From Buchnera aphidicola (Cinara curtihirsuta) (GTDB taxonomy: Bacteria; Pseudomonadota; Gammaproteobacteria; Enterobacterales; Enterobacteriaceae): a stretch of DNA of 64,000 bases. Both the position numbers and the translations under genes were made by a program. Shown here one piece after another: positions 21,630-63,390 of the stretch; position 1 is the stretch's first letter, and each line of letters starts with the position of its first letter. The DNA lies in the NCBI RefSeq assembly GCF_900698895.1, contig NZ_LR217700.1, positions 369,210 through 433,209 on the forward strand. The letters run 5' to 3'. The notes beneath the pieces were generated by a model. It made no database searches. It saw nothing but the letters and a program-made list of their open reading frames with translations, and was not told where the DNA came from.

Positions 21630-21988
21630 TCACCACTTAAAAATAAAATCAAATTTATTAATTTTTTTTTGAATATAAAAACTATTTAAAAATTTTACTG
21701 GTAATAAAAATTTATCATTATCTTTTAAACCTCTCTGATAAGCAGAATTTTTACAAAAAAAAAATCTTTTATATCATATAATGATAAAATTTTAAAAGAA
21801 AGAGAATAATTATGTAATTTAATTAAACTTGGTTTTTGATGTAACATTAATTGAAATACACCATCATCAATAAAAAATAAAGAAATTTTGTTACTAAATA
21901 AGGAAAAGGATAAAATAAAATCTAATCCTTCTCTACTAATACTATTTCCATGCGGGGCTTTAGAAAAAACAAAAGCAATAGATTTCAT
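21630..21988 (-). CDS. tusC: Sulfur relay protein TusC, frame broken at an A10 tract
   Basis: Second subunit of the TusBCD sulfur relay. MKSIAFVFSKAPHGNSISREGLD and DDGVFQLMLHQKP match the family. The reading frame as given stops after 87 residues. Just before that stop is a run of 10 A on the plus strand (21755-21764). With 11 A the frame continues as FFFCKNSAYQRGL, aligning with the E. coli ...VCAASLRERGL region, and ends at a TGA at 21630-21632. The restored product is exactly 119 residues, the same as E. coli TusC. Downstream codons show no further damage. Either polymerase slippage restores the product, or the tract length is a sequence error, or this is a young pseudogene. Confidence 0.85.
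21755..21764. other. A10 tract that breaks the tusC frame
   Basis: Ten consecutive A on the plus strand, read as T on the tusC strand. One more base restores the full 119-codon frame. Runs of this length are known slippage sites for RNA polymerase. Confidence 0.85.
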
Positions 21989-22010
21989 TAGATTAAACTT
22001 TTATTTAAAA

Positions 22011-22397
22011 TTAAAATTGTATAATACGATCACAATTATTTATAGAATAAGATAATTCACTTAAACTAGTTAAGTTAAATGAAGATGAATAAATTTCTTG
22101 AATATATTTAGACTTAATAATAGACTTGTTTAATAATATTCCTCGTCTATATGCAGAACTAGGACAAATACATAATTTTAAATTATATTTTTCTTTTAGA
22201 TTTATCCATCCTTTTAATATATTAAACTCATTTATAGGAGGAGAAATCATAATGTTAGCGTTATACACACCTGAAGAATAAAAAAAAATTTTTTTTATAT
22301 GGTGATTTAAAAAAAGAATAGATTTAACAAATAAAAAAGCAGTTATAGAGTTCTGAGTTCCATAAGGTGGGCCAGTTACAAAAAGAATAAAGTTCAT
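22011..22397 (-). CDS. tusD: Sulfur relay protein TusD
   Basis: Catalytic subunit of the TusBCD relay. The start MNFILFVTGPPYGTQ, the SSGVYNAN segment (41-48) and the end CDRIIQF match TusD. Cys78 in LCIC lines up with the persulfide-bearing Cys78 of E. coli. It has 128 residues, as in E. coli, and lies 22 bases before tusC. An intact TusD beside an apparently broken tusC argues that the complex is still in use. Confidence 0.93.
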   Translation of the reverse strand: MNFILFVTGPPYGTQNSITAFLFVKSILFLNHHIKKIFFYSSGVYNANIMISPPINEFNILKGWINLKEKYNLKLCICPSSAYRRGILLNKSIIKSKYIQEIYSSSFNLTSLSELSYSINNCDRIIQF

Positions 22398-22597
22398 ATT
22401 AATACCATTATTAATCGGATTTATATAAAAAAATAAAACATATTATACATATAACTATAAACATTTAATTTTTAATAATTAATTAAAATTAATGATATAA
22501 ATATACATTTATAAAAACAATGAAATTATATTTAAAAAATATAAATTTTTTTTATTTAAAAAAAATTACTATTTTTTTTAAAGTATTATTTTATTAA

Positions 22598-23614
22598 TTA
22601 TATTAAATTTAATACACTAAAAATTTTCTTTAAATTATTTTTACTATAATTCAATGCAGTCTTTTTTCCAAACTTTAAAATATCAATTAAATAATCTTCA
22701 TTTTTTCTAAAATAAAAATATGATTTCTGTATCTTAAAAATTGTATCACAAATAACATCTGATAATATTTTTTTAAAGCTAGAATATTGATAAAATTTAA
22801 ATCTCTTTTCTAGAATAGAAATATTAGTATCTGTTAAAGATGAAAAAATTGATAACAAATTAGAAATACCTGGTTTTTTTTCAGGATCAAATATAATTTG
22901 AGATGGGTTATCAGAATCCGTTAATGATTGTTTTATTTTTAAATATATAACATCTATTTTATCTAATAAAAAAATTGTATTATTTACATTTATATCTGAT
23001 TTAGACATTTTTTTTTTAGGATTTTGTAAAGCCATAATTTTAGATCCTATTGATTCTATTAAAATATCTGGTATAATAAAAATATTATCATATATAGAAT
23101 TAAAACGAAGAGCAATTTTTCTTACTAGTTCTATATGTTGTTTTTGATCCAAACCAACAGAAACAAAATTAGTATTATATAATAAAATATCAGCAGCCAT
23201 TAAAACAGGATAAGAAAATAAAGACAAATTAATTTGTGTATTATTATATAATAATCTTTTCTTAAATTGTGTCATACGAGATAATTCACCAAAATAAACA
23301 AAATTACTCAAAATCCAATATAATTGACTATGTGTATATACATGAGATTGTAAAAAAATTACACTATTATTAGGATCTACACCACATGATAAATATAAAG
23401 CTACCATATCCAAAATATTACTAGAAAAAAAATCTTTTGTATTATCTTGTTTAAGAGTAGTTAATGAATGTAAATCAGCAATACAAAAAAAGCATTGATA
23501 ATCTTTCTGAATATTTTTCCATCTATACATAGTTCCGCAATAATTACCTAAAGTAGGTAAACCAGTTGGTTGAATACCTGTAAACATAATGTCTTTTTTT
23601 TTAAAATCTAACAT
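22598..23614 (-). CDS. trpS: Tryptophanyl-tRNA synthetase
   Basis: Class I synthetase charging tRNA-Trp, whose gene is also in this window (57371-57444). The HIGH-like region reads TGLPTLGNYCG and the second motif is KKMSKSD; GELSRMTQFK and YPVLMAADILLY are typical of TrpS. I choose the ATG at 23614 because AAGGA lies upstream at a normal distance, giving 338 residues against 334 in E. coli; the longer frame adds 15 residues without homology. The order trpS, rpe, aroB, aroK follows E. coli with gph, dam and damX removed. Confidence 0.97.
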   Translation of the reverse strand: MLDFKKKDIMFTGIQPTGLPTLGNYCGTMYRWKNIQKDYQCFFCIADLHSLTTLKQDNTKDFFSSNILDMVALYLSCGVDPNNSVIFLQSHVYTHSQLYWILSNFVYFGELSRMTQFKKRLLYNNTQINLSLFSYPVLMAADILLYNTNFVSVGLDQKQHIELVRKIALRFNSIYDNIFIIPDILIESIGSKIMALQNPKKKMSKSDINVNNTIFLLDKIDVIYLKIKQSLTDSDNPSQIIFDPEKKPGISNLLSIFSSLTDTNISILEKRFKFYQYSSFKKILSDVICDTIFKIQKSYFYFRKNEDYLIDILKFGKKTALNYSKNNLKKIFSVLNLI

Positions 23615-23682
23615 ATATAAAAAAATCCTTAAAAAATATTTTTTAAAAATGTATAGCATACATATTTATATAAACTATAAAA

Positions 23683-24345
23683 TCAAATTAAAATATTTTT
23701 AAAATCTTCTATAGCTTGTACACAATCATTAGAATGAAAAATAGCTGATCCAATTACTAAAATATCAGCACCTGAATGTATAACGCTTGAAAAATTTGAT
23801 AAATTAATCCCTCCATCTACCGATAATAAAATATTTCTTTTTTTTTTATTAATTAAATAACGTATATATTTAATTTTTTTTAAAATATGTTTTAAAAAAC
23901 ACTGTCCTCCAAAACCAGGATTAACCGCCATTACTAATATTAAATCTAATTCATCAATTACATAATCTAAAAAATTTAAAGAAGTCGCAGGATTTAAAGC
24001 AATTCCAACTCCACAACCAATATTTTTAATGATTCGTATAGTTTTATCTAAATGATTAGTAGTTTCAGGGTGAATAGTAATAAATTTTACATTTAAATTA
24101 TAGAATAAGGAAATTAAAGAATCTACCGGAGAAGCCATTAAATGCACGTCAATTTGAACTGGAATTTTATTATTTTTTATAGACTGTAATATTATAGGAC
24201 CCATAGTAAGATTAGGAACATAATGATTATCCATAACATCAAAATGAATAAGATTACAACCAGCATGTAAAACTTTTCGTATATCATTTTCTAAATTACA
24301 AAAATTTGCAGATAAAATTGACGGAACAATTAAAAAATTTTTCAT
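23683..24345 (-). CDS. rpe: Ribulose-phosphate 3-epimerase
   Basis: Interconverts ribulose 5-phosphate and xylulose 5-phosphate in the pentose phosphate pathway, feeding ribose and erythrose 4-phosphate for the shikimate route. The TIM-barrel motifs PSILSANFCNLE, HFDVMDNHYVPNLT with the metal-binding His and Asp, MAVNPGFGGQ and VDGGI with the catalytic Asp are complete. It has 220 residues (E. coli 225). Confidence 0.97.
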   Translation of the reverse strand: MKNFLIVPSILSANFCNLENDIRKVLHAGCNLIHFDVMDNHYVPNLTMGPIILQSIKNNKIPVQIDVHLMASPVDSLISLFYNLNVKFITIHPETTNHLDKTIRIIKNIGCGVGIALNPATSLNFLDYVIDELDLILVMAVNPGFGGQCFLKHILKKIKYIRYLINKKKRNILLSVDGGINLSNFSSVIHSGADILVIGSAIFHSNDCVQAIEDFKNILI

Positions 24346-24452
24346 ACATTTCCTATATTATAACAGTTAATATATAATTTTTAATGAAAAATATTTATAA
24401 AAATAAAATTATAAATAATTATAAATATACAATAAATAACTTAATTAAATTT

Positions 24453-25556
24453 TTAAAAAATATATTTTTTTTGAAATTTTTTAATAGACTTTAAAAGAAA
24501 GTTTTGATCTATAGAAGAAAAAATTTTTACTTTACCTATAGTAACAGGTAAAATTAAACGAATAATTCCATTTAATACTTTTTTATCTCGCAACATTAAA
24601 AAAAGATAGTCATTTGGTTTCATATTTTTAGGTCCTATTATTGGTAAACCAATGTTATGAAAAATTTTTATTATTCTAAATAAATCATCTTCTTTTAAAA
24701 TATTTAACTGAAAAGATAAGTATGATGCCATTATAATACCAACTGAAACAGCATCACCATGTAACCATTTTCCATAACCTGTATAAGTTTCAATAGCGTG
24801 AGCAAAACTATGTCCTAAATTCAAAAAAGCTCGTGAACTATTTTCTTTTTCATCATTTTCAACAATTCGTACTTTTAATTCACAACATTTTTTTATACAA
24901 AATAAAAGTTCATTTTCATATAAATTTAATATTTTTAATAAATTTTTTTCTAACCATATAAAAAAATTATAATCAAAAATAATTGCATATTTAATAATTT
25001 CAGCTATACCTGAAATAATATGTTTTTTAGGTAAAGTTAAAAGAAAATCAATATCAATTAATACACCTTTAGGTTGCCAAAATGAACCAATCATATTCTT
25101 TCCTAAAGAATGATTAATACCAGTTTTTCCTCCTATAGAAGCATCAACTTGAGCTAATAAAGTAGTGGGAATCTGAAAAAAATTAACTCCTCTTTGATAT
25201 ATTGATGCAACAAAACCTGTAATATCACCAACAACTCCACCACCTAAAGCTATTAATGATAAATTACGACCATATGATTTTTTTAATAAAAAGGATATTA
25301 TTTTTTCAACAGTTTTAAAATTTTTAAAATTCTCCCCATCTTTAATTAAAAAAAATTTTATATCTTTAATATAATTATAAAAATTAGTTTTTAATTTATT
25401 TTTTAAAATAATATTATATACATTTTCATTTATAATTATGACACTATTTTTATTACTTAAAAAAAAAGATGATATAGATTCATCTTTTAACAATTGACTA
25501 CCAATATATATATCATAACTATTAAAATTTAAATTTACATGTACTTTATCTATCAT
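24453..25556 (-). CDS. aroB: 3-dehydroquinate synthase
   Basis: Second enzyme of the shikimate pathway, closing DAHP into 3-dehydroquinate with NAD and a divalent metal. The NAD-binding GGGVVGD motif (about 104-110), DASIGGKTGINH near 138, and the metal ligands Glu in the AEIIKYA region, His in LNLGHSFAHAIE and His in LHGDAVS are present. It has 367 residues (E. coli 362). It pairs with aroK, 43 bases upstream, as in E. coli. Confidence 0.97.
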   Translation of the reverse strand: MIDKVHVNLNFNSYDIYIGSQLLKDESISSFFLSNKNSVIIINENVYNIILKNKLKTNFYNYIKDIKFFLIKDGENFKNFKTVEKIISFLLKKSYGRNLSLIALGGGVVGDITGFVASIYQRGVNFFQIPTTLLAQVDASIGGKTGINHSLGKNMIGSFWQPKGVLIDIDFLLTLPKKHIISGIAEIIKYAIIFDYNFFIWLEKNLLKILNLYENELLFCIKKCCELKVRIVENDEKENSSRAFLNLGHSFAHAIETYTGYGKWLHGDAVSVGIIMASYLSFQLNILKEDDLFRIIKIFHNIGLPIIGPKNMKPNDYLFLMLRDKKVLNGIIRLILPVTIGKVKIFSSIDQNFLLKSIKKFQKKYIF

Positions 25557-25599
25557 AATATAAACTCTTATTTAATTTAAAAAAATTAAAATCATTAAA

Positions 25600-26142
25600 T
25601 TAATTTAACAAATTACTCGTGCGTATATAATATATAATATCAGATATAATTGATTTTACTTTTTTATTATAAGTATCAATAATAATATGAGAAATATTTT
25701 TGTATAAAGGATCACGTATTTGAAACAAATCATGTAATATTTTTTTATTTTTATTATTATTGTTAGACAACAAAGGTCTTTTTTTATCAATTTTAGTTCT
25801 ATTGAATTGTTCATTAACAGTTGCTCGTAAATATACAACAGTACCTCTAGAAAATAAAAAATCCCTTGATTTAGATGATAATATTGACCCCCCTCCTGTA
25901 GCTAATATTATACCTTTTTTATTAGTTAATTCATTAATAATTTTTTCTTCACGTATACGAAATTCTGATTCACCTTCTACCTCAAAAACCCAATCTATAT
26001 CTGCACCAGTTCTTTTTTCGATTTCAATATCAGAATCATAAAATTGCATATTTAACAATTTAGATAAACCACGACCGATAGTACTTTTTCCAGCTCCCAT
26101 TGGACCAACTAAAAAAATATTTTTTTTTTTATCTTTATTCAT
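25600..26142 (-). CDS. aroK: Shikimate kinase I
   Basis: Phosphorylates shikimate at the 3-hydroxyl using ATP. The P-loop GPMGAGKSTIGR (13-24), Asp pair near 37-39 (DSDIEIEKRTG), Arg of FRIREE, and GGGS near 84 are the substrate and nucleotide sites. It has 180 residues (E. coli 173). Together with aroB and aroE it shows that the chorismate route is retained for amino-acid supply to the host. Two overlapping short frames are shadows. Confidence 0.97.
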   Translation of the reverse strand: MNKDKKKNIFLVGPMGAGKSTIGRGLSKLLNMQFYDSDIEIEKRTGADIDWVFEVEGESEFRIREEKIINELTNKKGIILATGGGSILSSKSRDFLFSRGTVVYLRATVNEQFNRTKIDKKRPLLSNNNNKNKKILHDLFQIRDPLYKNISHIIIDTYNKKVKSIISDIIYYIRTSNLLN

Positions 26143-26284
26143 ACATACCTTCTAAAATTATTAATAACTATTAAATATAATTATATTTTTACTAAAAAAG
26201 TAAAATTTTAATAACTAAAATAAAAATTTAAAAAAATAAAATATAAAAATTATCAATATAAAATTATATAATATAATAAAAAAC

Positions 26285-26313
26285 TTGATTTTAAAAACAC
26301 TTTTTAATATGAT
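26285..26313 (+). promoter_or_regulatory. Promoter of tRNA-Ser
   Basis: TTGATT (26285-26290), a 17-base spacer and TATGAT (26308-26313) lie 24 bases before the tRNA. Spacing and both boxes fit sigma-70. Confidence 0.65.
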
Positions 26314-26337
26314 AAATAATTAATATTATATTATACA

Positions 26338-26424
26338 GGTGAGATGTCTGAGAGGTTTAAGGAGCATGCCTGGAAAGCGTGTATATTTTAAAAAGTATCA
26401 AGGGTTCGAATCCCTTTCTCACCA
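26338..26424 (+). tRNA. tRNA-Ser (anticodon GGA)
   Basis: Class II tRNA with a long variable arm. The acceptor arms GGTGAGA and TCTCACC pair, the anticodon loop CTGGAAA gives GGA, and the T loop is TTCGAAT. It closely follows E. coli tRNA-Ser(GGA). The discriminator base reads A rather than the usual G of serine tRNAs. Confidence 0.96.
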
Positions 26425-26495
26425 AAAAAAATCAATATAATAATATCAATGTAATTATTATTTCATTCATTAAATTTATTTATTTTTATTAATAA

Positions 26496-27077
26496 TTAAT
26501 AATATGAATGTTTACCAGAAACATGATTAGTAATATCACTTACACCAGATATTTCAGGAAAATGTTTAATTAATCTTTTTTCTATTCCTATTTTTAAAGT
26601 TTGATCTATCATAGAACATCCATTACATCCTCCAGAAAATTTTATAATTGCTATACCAGTATTACTAATTCCAATTAAAATAACTGAACCACCATGTAAT
26701 AAAAGCTTTGGATTAATTTTAGTAGATAAAAATCTTTTTACATTAAATTCTAACTGAGAAAATTTTTTTGATTTTTTTAATATTTTTGCATAAGGAGCTT
26801 TTAAAGTAATTTGTGTACCTAAATCATTTTCTATTATATCTATGATAGTATTTTTTAAAAATGGAAGCATAAATTTAGAAATATAAATATTAAATTTACT
26901 AAAAGATATTACTTCATCATTTATATCATCAATATCTTGATGATCGCAATAAGACATGCCACATTCGGCGTACATAGTACCTGGAGAGTTAACAAAAATT
27001 CTAATATTTGTATTACTTTTTTTTTTAGATAATAATTTAACAATATATTTTTCAGCTAAATCAGAAATTGTAATCAC
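26496..27077 (-). CDS. nfuA: Fe-S biogenesis protein NfuA
   Basis: Carrier that accepts Fe-S clusters and passes them to targets. It has a degenerate A-type N-terminal domain and a C-terminal Nfu domain; Cys151 and Cys154 in GGCNGCS form the cluster-binding CxxC. It has 193 residues (E. coli 191). It lies next to bioH as in E. coli, with gntX missing. With no iscA in the isc locus, NfuA may be a main carrier here. Confidence 0.96.
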   Translation of the reverse strand: MITISDLAEKYIVKLLSKKKSNTNIRIFVNSPGTMYAECGMSYCDHQDIDDINDEVISFSKFNIYISKFMLPFLKNTIIDIIENDLGTQITLKAPYAKILKKSKKFSQLEFNVKRFLSTKINPKLLLHGGSVILIGISNTGIAIIKFSGGCNGCSMIDQTLKIGIEKRLIKHFPEISGVSDITNHVSGKHSYY

Positions 27078-27218
27078 AGAATTATCCTTTATAATATGTT
27101 ATTGTATAATAATATAAATAAACATATTTATATTAATACAATCATAATAATATACAAAATTTTTATTAATTAAATTATTGTTAAAAAATTAATTAATAAT
27201 AAAAAATTTATAAATCAA

Positions 27219-27998
27219 ATGAAAAAAAAAATACATTGGTCTATTATAGGAAAAGGGGAAATAAATATAGTTTTTTTTCATGGATGGGGTATACACTCTA
27301 TTGCTTGGAGTAAAATTATTCCAATATTAAAACTATCTTTTACATTACATGTAATTGATTTACCGGGATTTGGAAAAAGCGTTAATTGTTCAGTTATGAA
27401 TTTTAAAGAAATATCTAATTATTTATTAAAAAAAATAAAAAATAAAGTAATATGGTTAGGATGGTCTATGGGGGGACTGATTGCTCATTATATGAGTTTA
27501 AATTATCCCAATTATACTATTGCTATGGTTCATGTAACTTCATCACCTTATTTTATAAAACAAAAAGAATGGTTAGGTGTATCAAAAAATACATTAAAAA
27601 CAATAAAAAAAAATATATTTACTAATTACAATAAATTTTTAAAACAATTCATTATATTACATGTTTTTGATAAAAAAATTAAAAATTTATCAATAAATAA
27701 TTTGTTTTTGAAAAAATATCCTAATCCAAAAAAAAAAGCTATTGAAATAGGATATCAGTGGTTAACAGAAATTGATCAAAGAAATGAAGTGCTCTCAAAT
27801 AGCATTCCAATACTTAAAATATATGGTGAATTGGATAAAATTGTACCTCGAGAAATATGTTATAAAATAAATTATATACATAAAAATAGCAATTCTGTTA
27901 TCATTAAAGGAGCTAAACATGCTCCTTTTTTATCACATCCTAATATTTTTTGTAATATTTTAAAAAAATTTATTAAAAATAAAAAAATTGATAATTAA
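27219..27998 (+). CDS. bioH: Pimeloyl-ACP methyl ester carboxylesterase BioH
   Basis: Alpha/beta hydrolase that releases pimeloyl-ACP for biotin synthesis. FHGWGIHSIAW (20-30), the nucleophile elbow GWSMGG with Ser83, Asp206 in GELDKIVP and His234 in GAKHAP form the catalytic triad and match E. coli Ser82, Asp207 and His235. It has 259 residues (E. coli 256). The gene is divergent from nfuA and converges on ssb. An intact triad suggests that biotin synthesis is retained elsewhere in the genome; other bio genes are not in this window. Confidence 0.93.
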   Translation: MKKKIHWSIIGKGEINIVFFHGWGIHSIAWSKIIPILKLSFTLHVIDLPGFGKSVNCSVMNFKEISNYLLKKIKNKVIWLGWSMGGLIAHYMSLNYPNYTIAMVHVTSSPYFIKQKEWLGVSKNTLKTIKKNIFTNYNKFLKQFIILHVFDKKIKNLSINNLFLKKYPNPKKKAIEIGYQWLTEIDQRNEVLSNSIPILKIYGELDKIVPREICYKINYIHKNSNSVIIKGAKHAPFLSHPNIFCNILKKFIKNKKIDN

Positions 27999-28054
27999 AA
28001 TTAAAATATATTTAATAACAACAGTAATATTAATAAAAAAAAATTAATAAATAA

Positions 28055-28585: not shown

Positions 28586-28857
28586 AAAATTTAACCTGAA
28601 TGTAATGAATATAAATATATAAATATAAAAAATTATATCATAAAATATAAAAATATTTTATACTTCTAACTATTTTAATTAAATCAAATATATATAGATT
28701 TAATTATCTATTTATATAAAAATATATTATAAAAATAGATATATATAAAAATTATTTAACTCACTATTATATTTTAAAATAAAAGAAAAAAAATACAACT
28801 TTTATATTAAAAAAATATATTATTTAATATTACTATATAAAAAAATCAATATAAAAT

Positions 28858-29859: not shown

Positions 29860-29937
29860 TATTAAATATTAAAAATATTATTTATACAATAATGTAAAAT
29901 TTATATTTAAACATTTATATAAGAGAAACGGTTGTTT

Positions 29938-31575: not shown

Positions 31576-31980
31576 ATGATTATATTATCTTTTGATTATG
31601 GTATAAAAATTATTGGTGTAGCTGTATCTGAAACTAAATTAAATTATTCTGTTCCTATAAAGTCTATTATAAATAATAAAAAAAATATTCTTTGGGAAAA
31701 AATTAATAATATAATAAAATATTGGAATCCTAAATACATTATTATAGGTTATCCATACAGAATTAAAAAAAATATTAATAAAAAAATAAAAAATTTTAGT
31801 AAACAAATAAAAATACGATTTAAAAAAAATATTTATTTACATGATGAAAATTATTCAACAACAGAAGCTAAATTATTATTAAAAAAAAATTTTAAAAAAA
31901 AAAAATTATATTGCATACATTCTATTTCAGCAAAAATAATTCTTGATAGTTGGCTAGAAACTAATAAACTAACTTATTGA
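31576..31980 (+). CDS. ruvX: Pre-16S rRNA nuclease / Holliday junction resolvase-like YqgF
   Basis: RNase H-fold nuclease linked to 16S rRNA 5'-end processing. LSFDYGIKIIGVAVSE at the start matches the family DFGxKxIGVA motif with the metal-binding Asp, and HDENYSTTEA near 90 is the second acidic site. It has 134 residues (E. coli 138). In E. coli gshB and yqgE precede it; here a 264-base spacer with only a weak 8-bp hairpin (31392-31442) separates it from dnaB. Confidence 0.92.
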   Translation: MIILSFDYGIKIIGVAVSETKLNYSVPIKSIINNKKNILWEKINNIIKYWNPKYIIIGYPYRIKKNINKKIKNFSKQIKIRFKKNIYLHDENYSTTEAKLLLKKNFKKKKLYCIHSISAKIILDSWLETNKLTY

Positions 31981-33230: not shown

Positions 33231-33251
33231 AATTAAAAAAATATTTATAAA

Positions 33252-34099: not shown

Positions 34100-35389
34100 A
34101 TGTTATTTGCACAAAAAATACTTAATTGGTTTCATTATCACGGAAGAAAAAATCTACCATGGCAAAAAAAAAATATTTATCTTATTTGGATATCTGAAAT
34201 TATGTTACAACAAACACAAGTTAATACAGTCATTCCATATTTTAATAAATTTAAAAAAAAATTTCCTACTATGAAATCACTAATAAAAGCAAAAATAAAT
34301 GAAATACTATATTTATGGAGTGGTTTAGGATATTATCAAAGAGCACACAATATATATAAAACGGCTATAATTATAAAAAAAAAATATAATGGACTTTTTC
34401 CAAAAAATATCAATGAAATAAAAAAATTACCAGGTATTGGACAATCAACAGCCGGAGCAATTCTATCTTTTGCATATAATTTTGGATATGCTATTTTAGA
34501 TAGTAACATAAAACGTATCTTAATAAGATTTCACTCAATTAATATAGTTAATAAAAAAAAAAGACAATTAGATATTTTATTATGGAATTTAATTAATAAA
34601 TATCTTCCTATTCATCATGCTAATAAATTTAATCAATCTATGATGGATATAGGTTCATTGATCTGTACAAATAAAAATCCTAAATGTTCTATATGTCCTT
34701 TAAATAATACTTGTAATTACTCTTATAATAAACCTTTTGATATAAAAAAAAAACAAAAAAAAAAAAATAAAATTGGAATTTTATTTTCAATAATGCAATA
34801 TAAAAATTCATTTTTTATAAAAAAACAAAATAGTATTTCTATTTGGAAAGGATTATTTTATTTTCCAATAACCCCTTTTCTAATATCAATAAATGAATGG
34901 AAAAAAATTATACAAAAAAAAAAAAAAAAAAAAAATACAAATATAATACCTTTTACTCACTATGTTAGTAATATGAAATTATATATAATTACTCAATTAA
35001 TTAAAATAAAAAAAAAAAACAAATTAAATAAAAAAGAAAAAATATGGTATAACATATTTTTAAATAAAAAAATTGGCATTCCTTCTCCAGTAAAAAAAAT
35101 ATTTATAATTTTAAAAAAAAAAATAAAGGAAAAAAATATGAAAAAAAAAAATAAACGTATAATTTTTTGTTCATTTTTTAAAAAAAATGCAGAAGGATTG
35201 GATTATCCTTTTTTTACAGGAACAATCGGACAAAAAATTTATCAAGAAATTTCTAAAAAAGCATGGACATTCTGGTTAAAAAAACAAACAAAAATAATCA
35301 ATGAAAAAAAACTAAATATGTTTATTGATAAAGATCGTGAATATTTAGAAAGAAAAATGAAAAAATTTTTATTTTCCAAAAATAATTAA
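34100..35389 (+). CDS. mutY: Adenine DNA glycosylase MutY, fused in frame to YggX
   Basis: Removes A mispaired with 8-oxoguanine. The catalytic Glu33 (ISEIMLQQTQ), helix-hairpin-helix LPGIGQSTAGA (110-120), Asp134 and the cluster ligands Cys189, Cys196, Cys199 and Cys205 are intact. The C-terminal domain ends around residue 340 with GIPSPVKKIF, matching the end of E. coli MutY. The frame then runs without a stop into a complete YggX. The junction is an A11 run at 35113-35123; with 10 A it would read AAA TAA and stop mutY directly before the yggX ribosome site. A run of 22 A at 34914-34935 codes six Lys in frame. The open frame has 429 codons, mutY alone about 341 (E. coli 350). Confidence 0.95.
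   Translation: MLFAQKILNWFHYHGRKNLPWQKKNIYLIWISEIMLQQTQVNTVIPYFNKFKKKFPTMKSLIKAKINEILYLWSGLGYYQRAHNIYKTAIIIKKKYNGLFPKNINEIKKLPGIGQSTAGAILSFAYNFGYAILDSNIKRILIRFHSINIVNKKKRQLDILLWNLINKYLPIHHANKFNQSMMDIGSLICTNKNPKCSICPLNNTCNYSYNKPFDIKKKQKKKNKIGILFSIMQYKNSFFIKKQNSISIWKGLFYFPITPFLISINEWKKIIQKKKKKKNTNIIPFTHYVSNMKLYIITQLIKIKKKNKLNKKEKIWYNIFLNKKIGIPSPVKKIFIILKKKIKEKNMKKKNKRIIFCSFFKKNAEGLDYPFFTGTIGQKIYQEISKKAWTFWLKKQTKIINEKKLNMFIDKDREYLERKMKKFLFSKNN
34914..34935. repeat. A22 homopolymer inside mutY
   Basis: Twenty-two consecutive A, the longest homopolymer I see in the window. It codes part of Gln, six Lys and part of Asn between the Fe-S cluster region and the C-terminal recognition domain. The frame is kept as written. 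Confidence 0.9.
35138..35389 (+). CDS. yggX: Fe(2+)-trafficking protein YggX, in frame with upstream mutY
   Basis: Small protein linked to iron handling and protection of Fe-S clusters from oxidation. The segment RIIFCSFFKKNAEG, QKIYQEISKKAW and the INEKKLNM motif match E. coli YggX closely. Counted from the internal ATG at 35138 it has 83 residues (E. coli 91, C-terminus short). AAAGGA lies 8 bases before this ATG, so it can still be translated as a separate protein although the mutY frame runs into it. In E. coli yggX directly follows mutY. Confidence 0.9.
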   Translation: MKKKNKRIIFCSFFKKNAEGLDYPFFTGTIGQKIYQEISKKAWTFWLKKQTKIINEKKLNMFIDKDREYLERKMKKFLFSKNN

Positions 35390-35399
35390 AAATACATTT

Positions 35400-37313: not shown

Positions 37314-37723
37314 TTATACATATAAAAATTTAATTTTTCTATTAGTAATAATTATTAATTTAGCAATTTTTTCACCGGGGTACACACAAAAAATTTTTTT
37401 ACTACAATTCCATATAGATATTTTCAATTCATTGTTATAAAAAAAATTCTTTAGAATAAATGGATTTCCTATAATTATTTTATATTTTCCCTTTACTTTA
37501 TTTAAAGATTCAATAAGAATATCTAAATTTTTATTAAAAGTATTAATTAATATTCCTGTAGAAATTAATGTTGTTTTTTCAGGTAAAATACATATTTTTT
37601 TTTTAATACAAGCTCTTAAATAAAATCCAAATAATCCGCCGTGTAAATATTCAGGAAAAAAAAAACAGTTCCAATACGAGAATCAAGAATTTTTATATTT
37701 AATTCTAATGTATCTAAACACAT
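37314..37723 (-). pseudogene. dut: Decayed deoxyuridine triphosphatase gene
   Basis: Remnant of dUTPase. The start MCLDTLELNIKILDSRIG aligns with the E. coli N-terminus, then the frame breaks at a run of 10 A on the plus strand (37666-37675). With one more base the rest is open to a stop at 37314, giving 136 residues against 151. Recognisable segments are FYLRACI, TTLISTGILI, ELKISIWN and YPGEKIAKLII. However, catalytic and binding motifs are gone: GLDLRA reads GFYLRA, PRSGL reads ESLNK, and IDSDYQG reads KNFFYNN. The C-terminal glycine-rich motif is also missing. An AGGA site precedes the ATG. I regard it as a non-functional gene with a surprisingly open frame. Confidence 0.8.
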
Positions 37724-47851: not shown

Positions 47852-48699
47852 TTAATATGTGATAATTCCATCATAAACATGCACAGCTTCCCCTGACATA
47901 TATAATGAATGTTCTAATATTCCATCCCAAAAAATTTTTAATTTACCTTTTAGTAATTTTACAGTTACAGAATTATATAAAATTTTATTATTAATCCCTA
48001 TAGCAACAGCAGCGCAAGCACCGCTACCACAAGCTTGAGTTTCACCAACGTGTCTTTCATATACTCGTAAAAAAATTTTTCTTTTTGAAATTATCTGCAT
48101 AAATCCAACATTAACTCCCTCAGGAAATAAAAAATACTTTGATATTTTTAACCCAATCTCTTGAACAGGAAAACTATGAATATTTTCTACCTGAATAACA
48201 CAATGAGGGTTACCTAAAGATACAACACTGATTAAATATTTTTTTTTATCAATATAAATATTATAATATAATTGTGTATTTTTTTGTAAAAAAGGAATCT
48301 TTTTAGGTGAAAAAATTGGTTCACCCATATTTATTTTAAAAATATTTTTTACGACATGTTCTAAAAACAAATATCTATTTTTAGTACTAACACAAATTTT
48401 TTTTTTACTGATTTTTCTTTTAAGAAATAAGTAATATGCAATACATCTAGCACCATTTCCACATTGCTCAACTTCTATACCATTTGAATTAAAAATTCTA
48501 TAATGAAAATGAGCTTTTTTAGATGCTGATTTTTGAATTATTAATAACTGATCAAATCCAATACCTAAAAATCTATCTGACCATTTTTTTATTAATTTTG
48601 AAGAAAAAAAAAATTATATTTTGTAGAATCAATTAAAACAAAATCATTTCCTAAACCATGCATTTTAGAAAAAAAAATAGTGTTTTTTTTCAATAACAA
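47852..48699 (-). CDS. dapF: Diaminopimelate epimerase, frame broken at an A10 tract
   Basis: Converts LL- to meso-diaminopimelate for lysine and peptidoglycan. As written, only the last 172 codons form one frame. The upstream part reads SKMHGLGNDFVLID, then a run of 10 A on the plus strand (48604-48613) shifts the frame. With one more base it continues through LGIGFDQLLII and the catalytic CGNGARC to the downstream frame, which holds the second catalytic Cys in TQACGSGACAA. The product would be about 282 residues (E. coli 274). The start is probably TTG at 48699 with GGAG seven bases upstream; another TTG is at 48693. Both catalytic Cys and all other motifs are preserved, so I consider the gene functional if the tract is corrected. 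Confidence 0.88.
48604..48613. other. A10 tract that breaks the dapF frame
   Basis: Ten A on the plus strand near codon 30 of dapF. With 10 the frame meets TAA four codons on; with 11 it stays open to the end of the gene. Confidence 0.85.
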
Positions 48700-55246: not shown

Positions 55247-55284
55247 ATTCTTATTCCTATTTATTATAAATAATAATTAAAAAA

Positions 55285-57135
55285 TTAAAGACATATTTTC
55301 CTTAAATCTCTAACAGCTCCTTTATCTGCGCTAGTAGCAAAAATACTATACATTTTCAAAGAATTAGATATTTTTCGTAAACGATTTTTTGGTGTATATG
55401 CTTTTTTTCCTCTTTTTTCTTCTGTTTTTCTGCGTATATTCTCTTCTTCTGAAGAAATATGTAACTTAATACTACGCTTAATAATATTAATACTAATTAA
55501 ATCACCATCATATATCAATGCAATTAATCCTTTATTTGCAGCTTCAGGAGAAATATGTCCAACAGAAATACCAGATGTTCCACCAGAAAATCGACCGTCT
55601 GTTATTAGAGCACATTTTTTATTTAAACCAATCGATTTTAGATATGTAGTAGGATACAACATTTCTTGCATTCCGGGTCCGCCACAAGGTCCTTCATATC
55701 GAATTACTATTACATCTCCAGATTTAACTTTTTTATTTAAAATAGCATATACAGCATCATCCTGACTTTCATATACTTTAGCTGGTCCTGAAAAAATCAT
55801 ATTATCTTGATCAATAGCAGCGGTTTTTATTATACTTCCTTTTTTTGCTAAATTACCTTTTAATATAGCTAATCCACCATCTTTACTATATGCATATTTT
55901 TCAGAACGAATACAACCATTTATACGATCTTTATCTAATTTATTCCATCTAAATGACTGTGAAAAAGGAATGATAGTTTTTATTCCTCCTGGTCCTGATG
56001 TATAAAAAGAAAAGTTCTTTTTATTTTTTTTATTAAAAATATCATATTTTTTAATTGTATCTTTTAACGTCAATCTAAGTATATTATGTACCGAAGTATC
56101 TAATAAATTAATCTTATTTAATTCAGATAAAATACCAAATATACCTCCTGAACGATGTAAGTCTTCCATATGATATAATGATGTACTAGGTGATATTTTA
56201 CATAAATGAGGAACTTTTCTAGACAAATAATCAATATCTGCCATACGAAAATTAATATCAGCTTCATAAGCCATAGCAAGAAGATGAAGAACAGTATTCG
56301 TTGATCCTCCCATTGCAATGTCTAAAATCATAGCATTTTTTAAAGTTGATTTTGTTACAATGCTCTTTGGTAGTACATTAATATTATTATTTTCGTAATA
56401 ATCTTTCGTATTTTTTACAATAACTTTACCAGCTTTTAAAAATAATTTCTTTCTATCAATATGAGTAGCTAATATTGTACCGTTACCCGGTAACGCAAGT
56501 CCAATAGCTTCAGTTAAACAATTCATTGAATTAGCAGTAAACATACCTGAACATGAACCACAAGTTGGACAAGCAGAATTTTCAATATTAGATAAAATTT
56601 TATTTGAAGTATTTTTATTAGCTCCGTGTACTATAGCATCAACTAAATCAATTTTAATTATATTATCATTTAATACAATTTTACCTGATTCCATAGGTCC
56701 TCCAGAAACAAAAACAGATGGAATATTTAATCTTAACGAAGCTAATAACATACCAGGTGTAATTTTATCACAATTAGAAATACAAACCATAGCATCTACA
56801 CAGTGTGCATTTATCATATATTCAATAGAATCTGCAATTAACTCTCGTGATGGTAAAGAATATAACATACCGGAATGACCCATAGCAATGCCATCATCAA
56901 TAGCAATTGTATTAAATTCCTTTGAAATTCCTCCAGATTTAATAATTTCTTGAGAAACTAATTTTCCTAAATCACGTAAATGTATGTGTCCGGGGACAAA
57001 TTCTGTAAAAGAATTTACAACAGCAATAATTGGTTTTCCAAAATCCGCATCCTTTACACCTGTTGCACGCCATAACGCTCTTGCTCCGGACATGTTTCTT
57101 CCATTAATAGTTGTAGATGAACGATATATTGGCAT
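55285..57135 (-). CDS. ilvD: Dihydroxy-acid dehydratase
   Basis: Fe-S enzyme forming the 2-oxo acids of valine and isoleucine. Cluster-ligand Cys in [11 protein letters not shown] near 122 and in [20 protein letters not shown] near 193 are intact, and the C-terminal [20 protein letters not shown] motif is complete. It has 616 residues, as in E. coli. With ilvC it supplies branched-chain precursors; both depend on the isc genes and Fpr for cluster supply. Confidence 0.98.
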
Positions 57136-57370
57136 TTATTTTGCTCTTTTCATATAAAATTCAAAAAAATTTTTATTTAGATAAAATTTTATAAAAATTT
57201 ATATTTCATATAAAATTATAATTACATATAAATCATAATAATTATTATAAATATCTATTTTTTATAAATAAATAATTATTAATAATAATATATAAATTAT
57301 TTTATAAATTAAATTATTTATTGTAAAAAATTTTAGGATAAGAAAATAAAATATATATTTTATTTTTTAA

Positions 57371-57444
57371 CAGGGGCGGAGGGAATCGAACCCCCAACCT
57401 TCGGTTTTGGAGACCGATGCTCTACCATATTAAACTACGCCCCT
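57371..57444 (-). tRNA. tRNA-Trp (anticodon CCA)
   Basis: Acceptor arms AGGGGCG and CGCCCCT pair, the anticodon loop CTCCAAA gives CCA, the T loop is TTCGATT and the discriminator is G. Nearly identical to E. coli tRNA-Trp. Confidence 0.97.
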
Positions 57445-57719
57445 AAAAAAATAAAAATTTGTAGAATGTAGAAAATAAATGAATATAAATATATTAATTA
57501 AAAACTATTATACATGAGAGAAAAAAAAACACAACTGCATATAATTTATAATAAATCATCTTTATAAATTTTTAAAAAAAACTACTTAATTGAATTTTTA
57601 ATCAAATCTTTTAAATAATATATTTATACAGAAAAAAAAAAAAAATATATAATAATTTGTAAACATTTATATTATAATAAATTAATCATATATATTTAAC
57701 TAAATAAGGTCATATAAAA

Positions 57720-58928
57720 ATGAAATTTCCTATTTATTTAGATTATGCAGCTACAACTCCAGTAGACCCTCAAGTGAAAAAAAAAATGAATAAATATTTT
57801 TCAATAAATGATACTTTTGGGAATGCAGCATCTAGATCTCATAAATTTGGATGGGAAGCTGAAGAATCAGTAGATATTGCGAGAAATGAAATTGCTAAAT
57901 TAATTAATTCAGATTCTCGAGAAATAATTTTTACTTCAGGTGCTACAGAATCAAATAATTTAGCTATTAAAGGAATTTATGAGTTTCATAAAAATAAAAA
58001 TACACATATTATCACTAGTAAAATAGAACATAAATCTGTTTTAGATTGTTGTCGATATTTAGAAAACAACGGATGTGATGTAACATATTTAACACCTAAT
58101 AAATATGGTATTATAGATATATATAAAATTAAAAAAAAAGTCAAAAAAAACACAATATTAGTTTCTATTATGCACGTTAATAATGAAATTGGATCAATTC
58201 AAGATATTAAAAAAATTGGTAAATTTTGTAAAAAAAAAGGAATATTTTTTCATGTAGATGCTACACAAAGCATTGGAAAAATAAAAATAGATATAAAAAA
58301 AATACATATTGATCTTTTATCTTTTTCTGCTCATAAAATATATGGACCAAAAGGAATAGGAGCATTATATGTTCGTCGAAAACCGCGTGTAAGATTATCA
58401 CCACAAATACATGGCGGAGGACATGAAAGAGGATTTCGTTCTGGGACATTACCTGTTCATCAAATTGTTGGATTTGGCGAAGCTTGTAAAATATTAAAAA
58501 AAAAAATGAATCAGGATATTTTGCATACTGAATGTTTACGCAATATGTTATGGAAAGGTTTGTATAAAGTTGAAGAAATTTATTTAAATAGTAATTTTAA
58601 CTATGTTACTAAACATATACTTAATATAAGTTTTAATTTTATTGAAGGTGAATCATTATTAATGGCTTTAAAAAATTTAGCAGTTTCCTCTGGATCAGCA
58701 TGCACATCAGCAAGTCTAGAACCTTCATATGTTTTACGAGCAATCGGGGTAAAAGATGAATTAGCGCATAGTTCAATTAGATTTTCTTTTGGTCGTTTTA
58801 CAACGTCAGAAGAAATTAAGTATGCTATAATAGAGATTAAAAATGCAATTAATAAATTAAGAAAAATGTCTCCTCTTTGGGAAATGTTTCAATCAGGAAT
58901 TAATATGAAAAAAATTTTTTGGAATTAA
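57720..58928 (+). CDS. iscS: Cysteine desulfurase IscS
   Basis: PLP enzyme that takes sulfur from cysteine for Fe-S clusters, tRNA thiolation (through TusA and TusBCD) and other uses. The PLP Lys206 in [12 protein letters not shown] and the sulfur-carrying Cys328 in SSGSACTS are at the E. coli positions. It has 402 residues (E. coli 404). It is the first gene of the isc cluster here; iscR, its usual upstream regulator gene, is absent. The spacer before it includes a run of 14 A (57632-57645). Confidence 0.98.
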
Positions 58929-58955
58929 TACTTTTTATATAGGAAATTTAAAATT

Positions 58956-59354
58956 ATGACATATAGTAAGAAAGTATTAGACCATTATGAAAATCCAAGA
59001 AATGTTGGTTCTTTTTCCGAAAAAGAAAAAAATGTTGGAACAAGTTTAGTTGGAGCTCCTGCTTGTGGAGATGTGATGAAACTACAAATAAAAGTAAATA
59101 ATAAAGGAATTATAGAAGATGCTTGTTTTAAGACATACGGATGTGGATCTGCTATAGCCTCAAGTTCTTTAATGACTGAATGGGTAAAAGGAAAAACTCT
59201 AAACGAAGCTAAAAAAATAAAAAATACAGAAATAGCAAAAGAACTAGAATTACCTCCTGTAAAAATTCATTGTTCTATTTTAGCTGAAGATGCTATTAAA
59301 GAAGCAATTGCAAATTATAATAAAAAAATAAAACGAGTAAAAATAAAAAATTAG
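58956..59354 (+). CDS. iscU: Fe-S cluster scaffold IscU
   Basis: Scaffold on which clusters form. The ligand residues Cys37 (GAPACGD), Cys63 (YGCGSA) and Cys106 (KIHCS) are intact, and the HscA-recognition motif LPPVK is at 99-103. It has 132 residues (E. coli 128), the extra at the C-terminus being Lys-rich. It lies 27 bases after iscS. Confidence 0.98.
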   Translation: MTYSKKVLDHYENPRNVGSFSEKEKNVGTSLVGAPACGDVMKLQIKVNNKGIIEDACFKTYGCGSAIASSSLMTEWVKGKTLNEAKKIKNTEIAKELELPPVKIHCSILAEDAIKEAIANYNKKIKRVKIKN

Positions 59355-59368
59355 TATATTATACTATC

Positions 59369-59402
59369 AGTGCTGAAATTAAATAAATTTTTATTCAGCA
59401 CT
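59369..59402 (+). terminator. Hairpin between iscU and hscB
   Basis: AGTGCTGAA (59369-59377) pairs with TTCAGCACT (59394-59402), 9 bp, with an AT-rich loop that can add pairs. It lies 15 bases after iscU, where E. coli has iscA. No strong T run follows, so attenuation or mRNA stabilisation between iscSU and hscBA-fdx is also possible. Confidence 0.5.
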
Positions 59403-59503
59403 AATTATATTAAAAATATATTGATTTATGTTTTATATTTTTTAATTTTTTTTCTAAAAAAATATTTTTTTAGAAATAAAAATCTATTTTTATAGGCATA
59501 AAA

Positions 59504-60034
59504 ATGAATTATTTTCATTTGTTCCAACTACCTCAACAATTTAAAATAGATAAAAAAGTATTAATTAATACATTTTACAAATTACAGAAAAAATATCATC
59601 CAGATATGTGTAATAAAAAAATTCTTAATAAAAAAAATCAATTATCTATGGCAATTAAAATTAATCAAGGTTTTAATATATTAAATAATAAATTTACTAG
59701 AGCAAGTTATCTATTAAAATTGCATAAAAAAAATTTTTCTTTTAAAAAAAATTATACTATTAATAAAAAAGAAATACTTTTAGAAAAATTTAAACTATAT
59801 GAAAAAATACAAAAAATAAAAGACAAACCAGTTTCATATAAACAAATAAATTCTTTTATTAAGAAAATTAAAAATAAATTATCATTTAATTTTAAAAGTT
59901 TTAGTGAAAATATTAAAAAAAAAAAAATTTATTCTGCCAACAAAATATTTTTTCATATATCTTTTATCTATAAAATTTTAGAAAAATTAAAAAAAATAAA
60001 AAAAAAACATATAAAAAAAAAGGAAAAAAAATGA
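59504..60034 (+). CDS. hscB: Fe-S co-chaperone HscB
   Basis: J-domain protein that delivers IscU to HscA. MNYFHLFQLPQQFKID starts the J domain and the HPD motif is in KYHPDMCN (about 36-38). The C-terminal helical domain that binds IscU is present but Lys-rich. It has 176 residues (E. coli 171). Its TGA stop overlaps the ATG of hscA as ATGA, so translation is probably coupled. Confidence 0.95.
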   Translation: MNYFHLFQLPQQFKIDKKVLINTFYKLQKKYHPDMCNKKILNKKNQLSMAIKINQGFNILNNKFTRASYLLKLHKKNFSFKKNYTINKKEILLEKFKLYEKIQKIKDKPVSYKQINSFIKKIKNKLSFNFKSFSENIKKKKIYSANKIFFHISFIYKILEKLKKIKKKHIKKKEKK

Positions 60035-61535
60035 AAGAAAAAAAAAAATTGCTATAGGGATCGATTTCGGAACTACCTATTGTTTAATATCTATAGTAAA
60101 AAAAAACAAAATTAAAATTATTAAAGAATTTAGTAAAAAAAAGTTTTTTCCAACAATTATAAATTTTAATGAAAAAAAAATTTCTATAGGATGGAAAGCA
60201 AAAAAATTTTTATCTAAAGATATAAAAAATACAATATCATCTATAAAAAGATTTATTGGAATGTCTTATTCTGAAATAAGAAAAAAAAAAATAAATATTC
60301 CATATGATGTTTCAGAAAATGATAAAAAAGAATTAATCTTTCATACTTGTATTGGAGAAATAACTGTTTCTTCTATCATTCAAAAATTCTTCACCTATAT
60401 GAAGAAAAAAATAGAAAAAAAATTTCATAAGTCTATTTATGGTATTGTAATTACAGTTCCAGCATACTTTAATAATATACAAAAAAATATAATAAGAAAA
60501 TCTGTAGAATTAGCTAAATTAAAAATATTACGTTTACTTAATGAACCTACTGCTGCAGCTATAGCATATGGGTTAGAAAAAAAAAGAAAAGGGATTATTT
60601 GTATATATGATTTAGGAGGAGGAACATTTGATGTATCTATTTTAAAAATATCACAAGGAGTATTTGAAGTTCTTGCTACTAATGGCAATCCTAAATTAGG
60701 TGGCGATGATTTTGATTATTTATTAGCTCACTTTTTATATTCAAAAATAAAAAATAAATTAAAATTAAATTATAAAATTTTTAAATATTTACTTATTATT
60801 GCTGAAAAAGTTAAAATTAAATTAAGTATACAAGACTCAGTAAAAGTCAAATTTTTAAATTATGAAATTAATTGTACAGTTATAGAATTTAATAAATTAA
60901 TTAATAAATATATTAATAAAACATTGTACATTTTAAAATGCGCTTTAAATGATGCTAAAATAAATAAACGTGATATAAATGATGTAATTTTAGTTGGTGG
61001 TTCTACATATATTCCTTTAATTCGAAATAAAATTTTTTCATTTTTTAAAATCAAACCATTAATTTTAATTAATCCAGCAGAAGTTGTAGCAAAAGGAGCT
61101 GGATTACATGCAAATTTTTTATTTAGTAAAAATAAAAATATAGAAAAATCTATATTATTATTAGATATTATACCAATTTCAATTGGTATAGAATTATTAG
61201 GTGGAATTATGGAAAAAATGATTTTAAAAAATACTAAAATTCCCACTGAAGTTATTAAAGTATTTACAACTGGCAAAGATAATCAAACAGGATTTTGTAT
61301 CAATATTTTTCAAGGAGAGGATAAATATGTCAAAAACTGTAAATTATTATCAAAATTTAAAATTCAAAAATTACCATTGAAACCAGCTGGTAAAATAAAA
61401 ATAATAGTAATATTTCGTGTAGATACAGATAGTTTACTTTCAGTAATTGTTAAAGAAAAAAAATTAAATATTAAACATAGCATTAAAATTGATACAATTT
61501 ATCAAAATAATAGTACTATTAATATAGATATTTAA
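60031..61535 (+). CDS. hscA: Fe-S chaperone HscA, start frame broken at an A11 tract and C-terminus short
   Basis: Hsp70-type chaperone that acts on IscU with HscB. The ATG at 60031 overlaps the hscB stop and follows AGGA. A run of 11 A (60038-60048) then puts the frame into an early TAG. With 12 A it reads on as IAIGIDFGTTYCLIS, the phosphate-1 motif of Hsp70, continuing without a stop. As written, the first ATG in the main frame is at 60261 and would lose that motif. DLGGGTFDVSILK, VLVGGSTYIPL-type and NEPTAAAIAYGL motifs are intact. The restored product has about 501 residues against 616 in E. coli: the alpha-helical lid after the substrate-binding beta domain is missing. Confidence 0.9.
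60038..60048. other. A11 tract that breaks the hscA frame
   Basis: Eleven A directly after ATGAAAG. One more A joins the start codon to the intact Hsp70 frame. Confidence 0.85.
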
Positions 61536-61650
61536 TCTAAATAATATTACAAATATACTTTTTTAAAATTTAAAAATTTTTTTATAAAAAATTCTATTTT
61601 TTTATAAAAAGAACATTTTTTACTAATATTTAATATTTTTGGAAAATTTC

Positions 61651-61983
61651 ATGCCTAAAATAGTATTTTACCCACAAAAATTTATTTTACCTAAAGGTTT
61701 ATCTGTTAAAGGTAAAACAGGAGAAACAATTCTTGATATAGCTTTATCAAATAAAATTAAAATGGAACATGCTTGTGAAAAATCTTGCGCATGCTGTACT
61801 TGTCATTGCATAATAAGAAAAGGATTTTATTCTTTATCAAAATGTGAAGAAAAAGAAGAAGATTTATTAGACAAAGCATGGGGGTTAGAAAAATTTAGTC
61901 GTCTAGGATGTCAAGCGCGTTTAGGAACTAAAGATATTGAAGTTGAAATTCCAATATATAATGTTAATTATGTAAATGAATAA
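61651..61983 (+). CDS. fdx: [2Fe-2S] ferredoxin of the isc cluster
   Basis: Electron donor for cluster assembly. Ligands Cys42, Cys48, Cys51 and Cys87 are at the E. coli positions, in HACEKSCACCTCHC and GCQAR. The ATG at 61651, with GGAAA upstream, gives MPKIVFYPQK and 110 residues (E. coli 111); an in-frame TTG four codons earlier is less likely. Fpr is the probable reductase. It converges on der. Confidence 0.97.
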   Translation: MPKIVFYPQKFILPKGLSVKGKTGETILDIALSNKIKMEHACEKSCACCTCHCIIRKGFYSLSKCEEKEEDLLDKAWGLEKFSRLGCQARLGTKDIEVEIPIYNVNYVNE

Positions 61984-62016
61984 AAAAAATAATATTATGA
62001 ATAAAATTTTAATAAT

Positions 62017-63390
62017 TCAATTTATTGATTTTATATAAGGATTTATACTTTTTTTAAAAAAGAATTGAATGGGTGTATTCGGGATTTGTAATTCTTTTTG
62101 AAAGAAATGCATTAAATATTTTTTATATGTTCTAGATACATATTGTATTTGTGTACCATGAATTATAATAAATAATGGATTTTTTTTACCTAAATGTGCA
62201 TATTTTAATCGTATTACTTTTCCTGTTACACCCGCAGGTAAAGGATGTTGAATTATAGCTTTATTTAATATTTTTGTTAAAAATGAAGAACTAAAAGTTT
62301 TTAATGATTCTTGATAAATAAAATTAATATGATGAATAAATTTTTTTAATCCCTTTTTATGTAGAGCTGACATATAAATTATTTTAATATTCTTTATAAA
62401 TTTTAAACGATTATTAATAATCTTTTTTATTTCATTTTTTTTACTTTTTAATATTAAATCCCATTTATTTACTACTATAAAAAAAGTACAATTTGATTTT
62501 ATAACTAAATTAATTATAGATAAATCCTGTGCATAAATTTCTGTATTAGCATCTAGAACAACAATAGATATATTATTTTTATTTATTATATTTATAGATC
62601 TTTTTTCAGAAACTTTTTCTAGAATTATTTTTCTTTTATTTTTTTTTTTTATACCAGCGGTATCTGTAAAAATATATTCAATATTTTTATTATTTAATGA
62701 AACTTTAATTATATCTCTAGTAGTGCCTGGTATAGAACTTGTAATTATTCTATTATAATTTACCAAACTATTAATAATAGAAGATTTACCTACATTAGGT
62801 TTTCCAATAAAACAAATTCTTATTTTTATACGACAGTTAAATTTATCATATAAAACTGTTTTTATTTCTTTTTCTTTTATTATTTTTTTTGAAGAAATAT
62901 ATATTTCTTTCAATAAATTAGACAAACCTTTTTTATGTGAAACAGAAATTTTATAAATTTTCTTTATACCAAAACGATAAAAATCAATTATTTTTTCTTC
63001 ATTACTAATTCTATCAATTTTATTTATTACAAGTATTATAAATTTATTCTCTTTTCTTATTTTTTTTAAAATATAAAAATCTAATTCTTGAATTCCTTCA
63101 CAAGCATCTACAACAAAAATAACAAAATGTGATTCTTTTATAGAAAATTTTGTCTGATTATAAGATTCTATTTTTATAGAATTTTTTTTTTCTTTTTTTT
63201 TAAAAAAATCAATTCCTGCTGTATCAATAATACAAAATTTTTTTTTTTTTATTATACAAAAACCATAATTTCGATCACGAGTTGTTTTTTTTTTATTACT
63301 TATAAGTGAAGAATTAGTTTTAGTTAATAAATTAAATAAACTAGATTTTCCTACATTAGATCGACCTATTAAAGAAATAATTGGAATCAT
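62017..63390 (-). CDS. der: Ribosome-assembly GTPase Der (EngA)
   Basis: Double GTPase needed for 50S maturation. The first G domain starts IGRSNVGKSSLF (7-18) and has DTAGI near 56; the second has GKPNVGKSSI near 196, SIPGTTRD and DTAGI again. The C-terminal KH-like domain is present from about 345, with QHPLPAGVTGK. It has 457 residues (E. coli 490), the loss being in the acidic linker and C-terminal tail. An in-frame run of 13 A on the coding strand lies near codon 50 (63238-63250). Its ATG overlaps the yfgM stop by one base. Confidence 0.96.
   Translation of the reverse strand: MIPIISLIGRSNVGKSSLFNLLTKTNSSLISNKKKTTRDRNYGFCIIKKKKFCIIDTAGIDFFKKKEKKNSIKIESYNQTKFSIKESHFVIFVVDACEGIQELDFYILKKIRKENKFIILVINKIDRISNEEKIIDFYRFGIKKIYKISVSHKKGLSNLLKEIYISSKKIIKEKEIKTVLYDKFNCRIKIRICFIGKPNVGKSSIINSLVNYNRIITSSIPGTTRDIIKVSLNNKNIEYIFTDTAGIKKKNKRKIILEKVSEKRSINIINKNNISIVVLDANTEIYAQDLSIINLVIKSNCTFFIVVNKWDLILKSKKNEIKKIINNRLKFIKNIKIIYMSALHKKGLKKFIHHINFIYQESLKTFSSSFLTKILNKAIIQHPLPAGVTGKVIRLKYAHLGKKNPLFIIIHGTQIQYVSRTYKKYLMHFFQKELQIPNTPIQFFFKKSINPYIKSIN

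Follow-up and report, generated by a model that had tools for sequence, protein, structure and literature searches.

How might a symbiont read genes whose coding sequence is one base short at a long run of A or T? The question is raised by a stretch of 64,000 nucleotides (hereafter the window; contig NZ_LR217700.1, C1:369210-433209) at the end of the genome of Buchnera aphidicola (Cinara curtihirsuta), in which the genes tusC, dut, dapF and hscA are off-frame at such runs. This genome comprises 442,248 bases in three contigs, and it includes a plasmid of 6.2 kb that resembles the leuABCD plasmids of Buchnera, the best matches being those of Cinara aphids at ~79-81% (very near records may have been left out). 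We find that the off-frame tracts are real and recurrent, and that insect endosymbionts are already known to have tracts of this kind. Our preferred reading, to which we assign a probability of roughly 0.7 from comparisons of DNA, is that real indels arising by slippage are rescued in needed genes by base addition by RNA polymerase. Correct reading of the off-frame genes would thus probably depend on slippage of the copying machinery at these tracts.

The initial annotation had described all four genes as broken by poly(A) tracts, each needing one extra base. Each gene is indeed off-frame and one base short modulo 3, but poly(A) is the right description of hscA alone. The tracts of tusC, dut and dapF, all three encoded on the minus strand, read T10 in sense orientation (U10 in the mRNA). 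Apart from one shift each in tusC, dut and dapF, and the one at the start of hscA, the genes are open in the present genome. The DsrE family matches tusC over profile positions 1-72 (E 2.9e-16) and 73-111 (E 0.012, under the curated cut-off). In dapF, the off-frame reading stops a few codons past the tract, and PF01678 matches the downstream piece with an E-value of 1.3e-40 and the upstream piece weakly (E 0.0079, under the cut-off). Gene names that go beyond the Pfam scan are presumed from the protein sequences.

These sites were compared among 16 genomes of the genus, the present one (G000) included, by frameshift-aware alignment and direct reading. One assembly (G009) was excluded from sign and locus counts as error-prone, leaving the 15 genomes referred to below, while the 14 relatives of the run census exclude both G009 and G000. 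All window runs of at least 8 were listed, and the census of coding runs covers 73 aligned genes. References 54, 81 and 119 were excluded from run and shift counts for their over-extended N-termini, four clusters of open reading frames (ORFs; clusters 9, 47, 61 and 65) were left unaligned as spurious, and shifts 12 residues or fewer from a reference end were ignored in the counts. The start of hscA, missed by the aligner, was read separately. As the references are ORFs from six genomes, a gene that is off-frame in all six escapes unless spotted by hand, as happened with dapF. An apparent split of rplB in five relatives, seen in a table of ATG-initiated ORFs, was ruled out, one stop-free frame covering this gene in 16 of 16 genomes.

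The same tracts are off-frame in many members of the genus. At dapF, the tract is T10 and off-frame in 12 of 16 genomes, T11 and in frame in three, and lost with the gene in frame in one; T9 and T12 never occur there, and runs of 9, 10, 11 and 12 outside aligned genes stand at 145:50:10:11. Every one of the 12 off-frame copies carries a single shift and no stop. The tusC tract is T10 and off-frame in seven of 16, T11 and in frame in six, and a substituted, in-frame T10 in three. At the start of hscA, the run is one short in eight of 14 genomes (among them G013, which has an upstream in-frame ATG), in frame in five and at another offset in G009. Near codon 88 of the same gene, an A13 is off-frame in G002, G004 and G014, the same three having an in-frame start run. 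By contrast, the off-frame T10 of dut occurs in the present genome only, G003 having a different, double shift.

A further example, lipB (G000:C1:204833-205446), lies outside the window and is off-frame at A12 in the present genome. This gene is off-frame in six of the 13 genomes readable at the site, G009 being set apart; the latter also has a change of frame at this site, where the run is short, and the motif used gave no readable site in G001 or G008. When ten further stretches of the present genome were compared with G007 and G015, lipB was the only shift of its own. Scanning the window and these ten stretches for junctions gave 69, mostly due to chance by eye, and lipB alone was examined further outside the window.

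Parsimony on a protein tree requires at least four changes for dapF, four for tusC, three for the hscA start, one for hscA codon 88 and five for lipB, with the root state of dapF ambiguous. Off-frame alleles of relatives share ancestry, and ratios counted over genomes are non-independent draws. Outside the genus, no T run longer than 9 is present at the dapF site, and every copy keeps its frame across the stretch compared, in the 19 readable of 24 other-genus loci among the best 30 (five were unreadable).

The direction of the shifts is nearly constant as well. Among the 33 shift calls in 15 genomes, 28 fall at runs of at least 9; two of these mark the boundary of mutY and yggX (see below), and the other 26 consist of 24 shifts of -1, one of +1 and one of -2. 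The +1 shift, the sole one at a run of at least 9 outside G009, is at an A18 in G002, in the ortholog of 31576-31980 (presumably ruvX), and the -2 shift is the one in dut of G003. The eight hscA start and six lipB cases, which were read apart, are likewise one short.

It had been proposed in the initial annotation that tracts of A10-11 break genes and longer ones do not, and this pattern was taken to favor real indels tolerated by RNA slippage. The long runs cited as in frame, in aroE, dnaB, hemW, der and mutY, do each lie inside a single open frame to which relatives align, and all are sense poly(A). However, the rule fails for lipB at A12 in the same genome and for hscA near codon 88 at A13 in three relatives. 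Length was rejected as the deciding variable, since these cases break the rule and since length is confounded with coding strand. Among coding-strand runs of at least 10 in the window, three of four T runs are off-frame versus one of 45 A runs (73 aligned genes plus the hscA start; Fisher p 0.0009). In the 14 relatives, the off-frame fractions of T runs are 1/109 (T9), 17/46 (T10) and 0/10 (T11), and those of A runs are 1/376 (A9), 2/260 (A10), 0/129 (A11), 1/58 (A12), 3/30 (A13), 0/25 (A14-15) and 2/7 beyond. Thus the argument from length falls away, while tolerance through RNA slippage stands as the best reading for dapF, hscA and likely tusC and lipB on the strength of comparative recurrence.

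Codons past the break have continued to evolve under constraint in two of the genes. The ratio of nonsynonymous to synonymous substitution rates (dN/dS) is 0.11-0.24 for the part of dapF that follows the break and 0.15-0.20 from codon 92 to the end of hscA, in five pairs each, compared with gene medians of 0.10-0.16. Judged by these ratios, dapF and hscA remain under purifying selection. The gene matching PF02784, which we take to be lysA, has an open frame in all 16 genomes, so the pathway that includes dapF seems to be in use.

Neither the MutS_V nor the DNA_mis_repair family was detected in any of the 16 genomes, whereas the control search found them in 11 of 14 other genomes, including E. 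coli, and runs should therefore change length freely. We propose that replication slippage would generate real indels in the A/T runs of such a genome and that the one-short allele could persist in needed genes (dapF, hscA and probably tusC and lipB). At runs of this kind RNA polymerase would insert one additional base into a fraction of the transcripts, most easily at poly(U), and some full-length protein would result from an off-frame gene. Transcripts would then be of mixed length, and we infer that the extra base comes from RNA polymerase and not from a -1 slip of the ribosome. Support for this reading comes from the recurrence of the same tracts off-frame across the genus, from their nearly uniform sign and from the constraint that dapF and hscA show past the break.

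Both the preference for T and the one-short sign also fit polymerase slippage as reported for Buchnera (PMC5574713) and E. coli (PMC6260861); here and below, papers given by PMC number are represented by partial text. Homopolymer runs account for 151 of 157 transcription insertions in Buchnera, with an exponential rise as runs lengthen, and for 16 of 57 deletions (PMC5574713). The E. coli polymerase slips more readily on poly(T), and insertions are threefold deletions in four active runs (PMC6260861). Earlier endosymbiont work found 12-50% corrected transcripts at long poly(A) runs (PMC5009743).

Several observations weigh against this reading. The T bias is modest when each distinct locus is counted once (15 genomes; T 3/19 versus A 4/171, p about 0.03 including the hscA start), one of the four off-frame A loci being mutY, at its gene boundary to yggX. 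A deletion-biased mutation process could equally yield the -1 sign. Ranked among the 73 genes, the dN/dS values fall mostly in the upper half, at 34-60 for dapF and 42-57 for hscA. In the 37-codon tail of tusC, nonsynonymous to synonymous counts for the three off-frame pairs are 9.5:1.5, 8:1 and 1:2, compared with 4:3 and 9:6 in in-frame pairs, and these counts speak against a simple rescue of this gene. The hscA frame contains ATT, ATA and ATC codons past the run, and G013 has its in-frame upstream ATG, such that another start may possibly be used instead of the ATG. According to PMC5574713, no frame-restoring transcription error was detected. Moreover, the E. coli polymerase has similar overall frequencies of insertion and deletion, with insertions at T6-T7 below 1% (PMC6260861), and strong rescue at T10 is therefore an extrapolation.

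A bolder form of the proposal, which we regard as possible but rather doubtful, holds that being off-frame is the usual and long-lived state of dapF and hscA in the genus, with frames 0 and -1 nearly equivalent to selection and the third frame not. The ratio of T10 to T11 at dapF is 12:2 without G009, versus 50:10 outside aligned genes (p 1.0), and the ratio at tusC is 7:5 (p 0.11). If this were true, normal decoding of such genes would always need a one-base slip, possibly fixing low expression.

Among competing explanations, the transcripts could be normal and the genes rescued by -1 ribosomal frameshifting at U UUU UUU or A AAA AAA. Programmed frameshifting of the dnaX type uses a slippery homopolymer and the -1 direction; one-short runs are exactly what such a slip bridges, and slippery heptamers are contained in any run of 10. 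In addition, the 75 nt past the dapF tract have the lowest mean folding z-score of 23 gene windows (-1.13 over 11 genomes; with dinucleotide shuffles, -1.25 over 14). However, the predicted dapF hairpin shows a change on both sides in only one of 11 pairs and a covariation term of -0.01, and mean folding z-scores are about -0.3 at tusC and hscA. A Shine-Dalgarno-like tetramer within 25 nt upstream is found in 0 of 14 dapF and 1 of 14 tusC copies, and in 6 of 12 hscA copies, where it is at the gene's own ribosome site. With no upstream Shine-Dalgarno-like site and with a weak fold that lacks covariation, dapF differs from the dnaX type. We consider ribosomal rescue unlikely.

It is also improbable that these genes are simply pseudogenes in early decay, although dut has some of the expected features. 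In each of the five pairs its dN/dS, at 0.48-0.57, is among the highest (ranks 71-73 of the 73 genes); values in this range also occur where both copies are open, so that selection on dut is relaxed in general, and the gene may be eroding. This gene is fast-evolving across the genus; it shows a double shift in G003 and, in G001 and G008, no more than weak matches at other places. The tail of tusC likewise seems relaxed in two of the off-frame pairs noted above. Against decay stand the single shift without stops in each off-frame dapF copy, the low dN/dS of dapF and hscA, and the lysA-family gene, open throughout the genus set.

Alternatively, symbiont populations could be mixed, the assembled run length being that of the majority and in-frame genomes existing alongside. 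The lack of detectable MutS and MutL would favor such mixtures, and close relatives do differ at a tract, as with lipB, which is off-frame in G000 and in frame in G007, and likewise with dut. Yet this very improbable explanation does not account for the fact that 12 of 16 dapF copies were assembled with T10.

Nine published Cinara Buchnera genomes were obtained from 251-base HiSeq reads at 179-6410x (PMC6908640), and the present genome may be one of them. Under-counting of long runs in sequencing or assembly would give the one-short sign, but the recurrence of off-frame tracts argues against such error, which is highly implausible in that it would have to turn T11 into T10 at dapF and tusC while hardly affecting T10, A10 and A11 elsewhere (off-frame fractions in 15 genomes are T10 20/50, with 19 of the 20 at two loci, T9 1/116 and A10 2/280), and in that dispersed error has the look of G009, with 28 shifts of mixed sign in 68 genes, mostly at short runs and only six at runs of at least 9, whereas the other 15 genomes have one to four shift calls each, mainly at the same few loci.

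Tamas et al. (2008) reportedly described how transcriptional slippage rescues genes with poly(A) tracts, both in Buchnera and in Blochmannia, and Wernegreen, Kauppinen and Degnan (2010) are said to have described old frameshifts that selection has maintained in Blochmannia. The present cases resemble the former in that an AT-rich endosymbiont has a single indel within a long run of A or T, in a gene that is otherwise open and retains constraint. They differ in the genes involved, in that sense poly(T) makes up three of the four tracts in the window, in that one tract is off-frame across most of the genus, and in being known from DNA alone. Conservation of off-frame tracts between species is shared with the Blochmannia examples, while the lineage, the genes, the set of 16 genomes and the repeated switching between off-frame and in-frame states at one site are different here.

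Frameshifted tracts with slippage rescue, some conserved between species, are on record for Blochmannia and Buchnera (PMC3017870, PMC3164680, PMC4389277). Homopolymeric frameshifts were counted in 1-18 genes per genome in eight Buchnera genomes, with murF affected repeatedly (PMC3164680). In the text available, those were attributed to convergent inactivation or possible regulation, whereas here an identical tract recurs and constraint is retained. No report of off-frame dapF, hscA or tusC was found in the titles and abstract openings of the Buchnera papers that the search listed, a search that did not extend to lipB and dut; dapF is mentioned in other insect systems (PMC5664097).

At least one Buchnera pipeline discarded frameshifted coding sequences (PMC9116674). 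Genes of this kind are easily classed as pseudogenes, and the capacity of these symbionts for lysine, Fe-S, lipoate and tRNA-thiolation functions could be under-reported. The gene set also makes predictions about sign and strand, and so offers a natural test of how far a genome lacking detectable mismatch repair can rely on transcription errors.

One further run was examined at the junction of mutY and yggX, where the initial annotation had called for one A fewer to restore a stop. The comparison offers no support for this, as mutY and yggX share one frame in 12 of 16 genomes (the exceptions being G001, G008, G010 and G011) with runs of A13, A11, A9, A8 or shorter at the yggX start, and the ATG at that start is present in 16 of 16. 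A slip was rejected here in favor of a conserved fusion, perhaps a joined frame with an internal start. Coordinates are collected in the table.

Table. Off-frame tracts, the genes that contain them and the mutY-yggX frame (positions within the window)
Feature	Position	Strand	Evidence
tusC T10 (sense) tract, off-frame	21755..21764	-	87-aa ORF stops early, tail in other frame
tusC, two frames	21633..21988	-	Pfam DsrE matches both pieces
dut T10 (sense) tract near 5' end, off-frame	37656..37665	-	Site alignment
dut, two frames	37314..37723	-	Start inferred from alignment to G007; Pfam dUTPase on downstream piece
dapF T10 (sense) tract, off-frame	48604..48613	-	Site reading and alignment
dapF	47852..48699	-	Likely TTG start after AAGGAG, ~30 codons, tract, then ~250 codons in another frame
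hscA A11 (sense) tract directly after ATG, off-frame relative to that ATG	60038..60048	+	Direct reading
hscA	60031..61535	+	One open frame except first codons; PF00012 HSP70 (E 4.2e-131) on that frame
mutY-yggX joined ORF, 429 aa	34100..35389	+	HhH-GPD at residues 31-165, Iron_traffic at residues 353-428
A11 at yggX start, inside joined frame and outside the off-frame set	35141..35151	+	16-genome comparison

Among the relatives, G007 also contains a gene that is split at A9/A11 runs (L166:2274-2299) and that corresponds to an open frame of 893 aa in the present genome.

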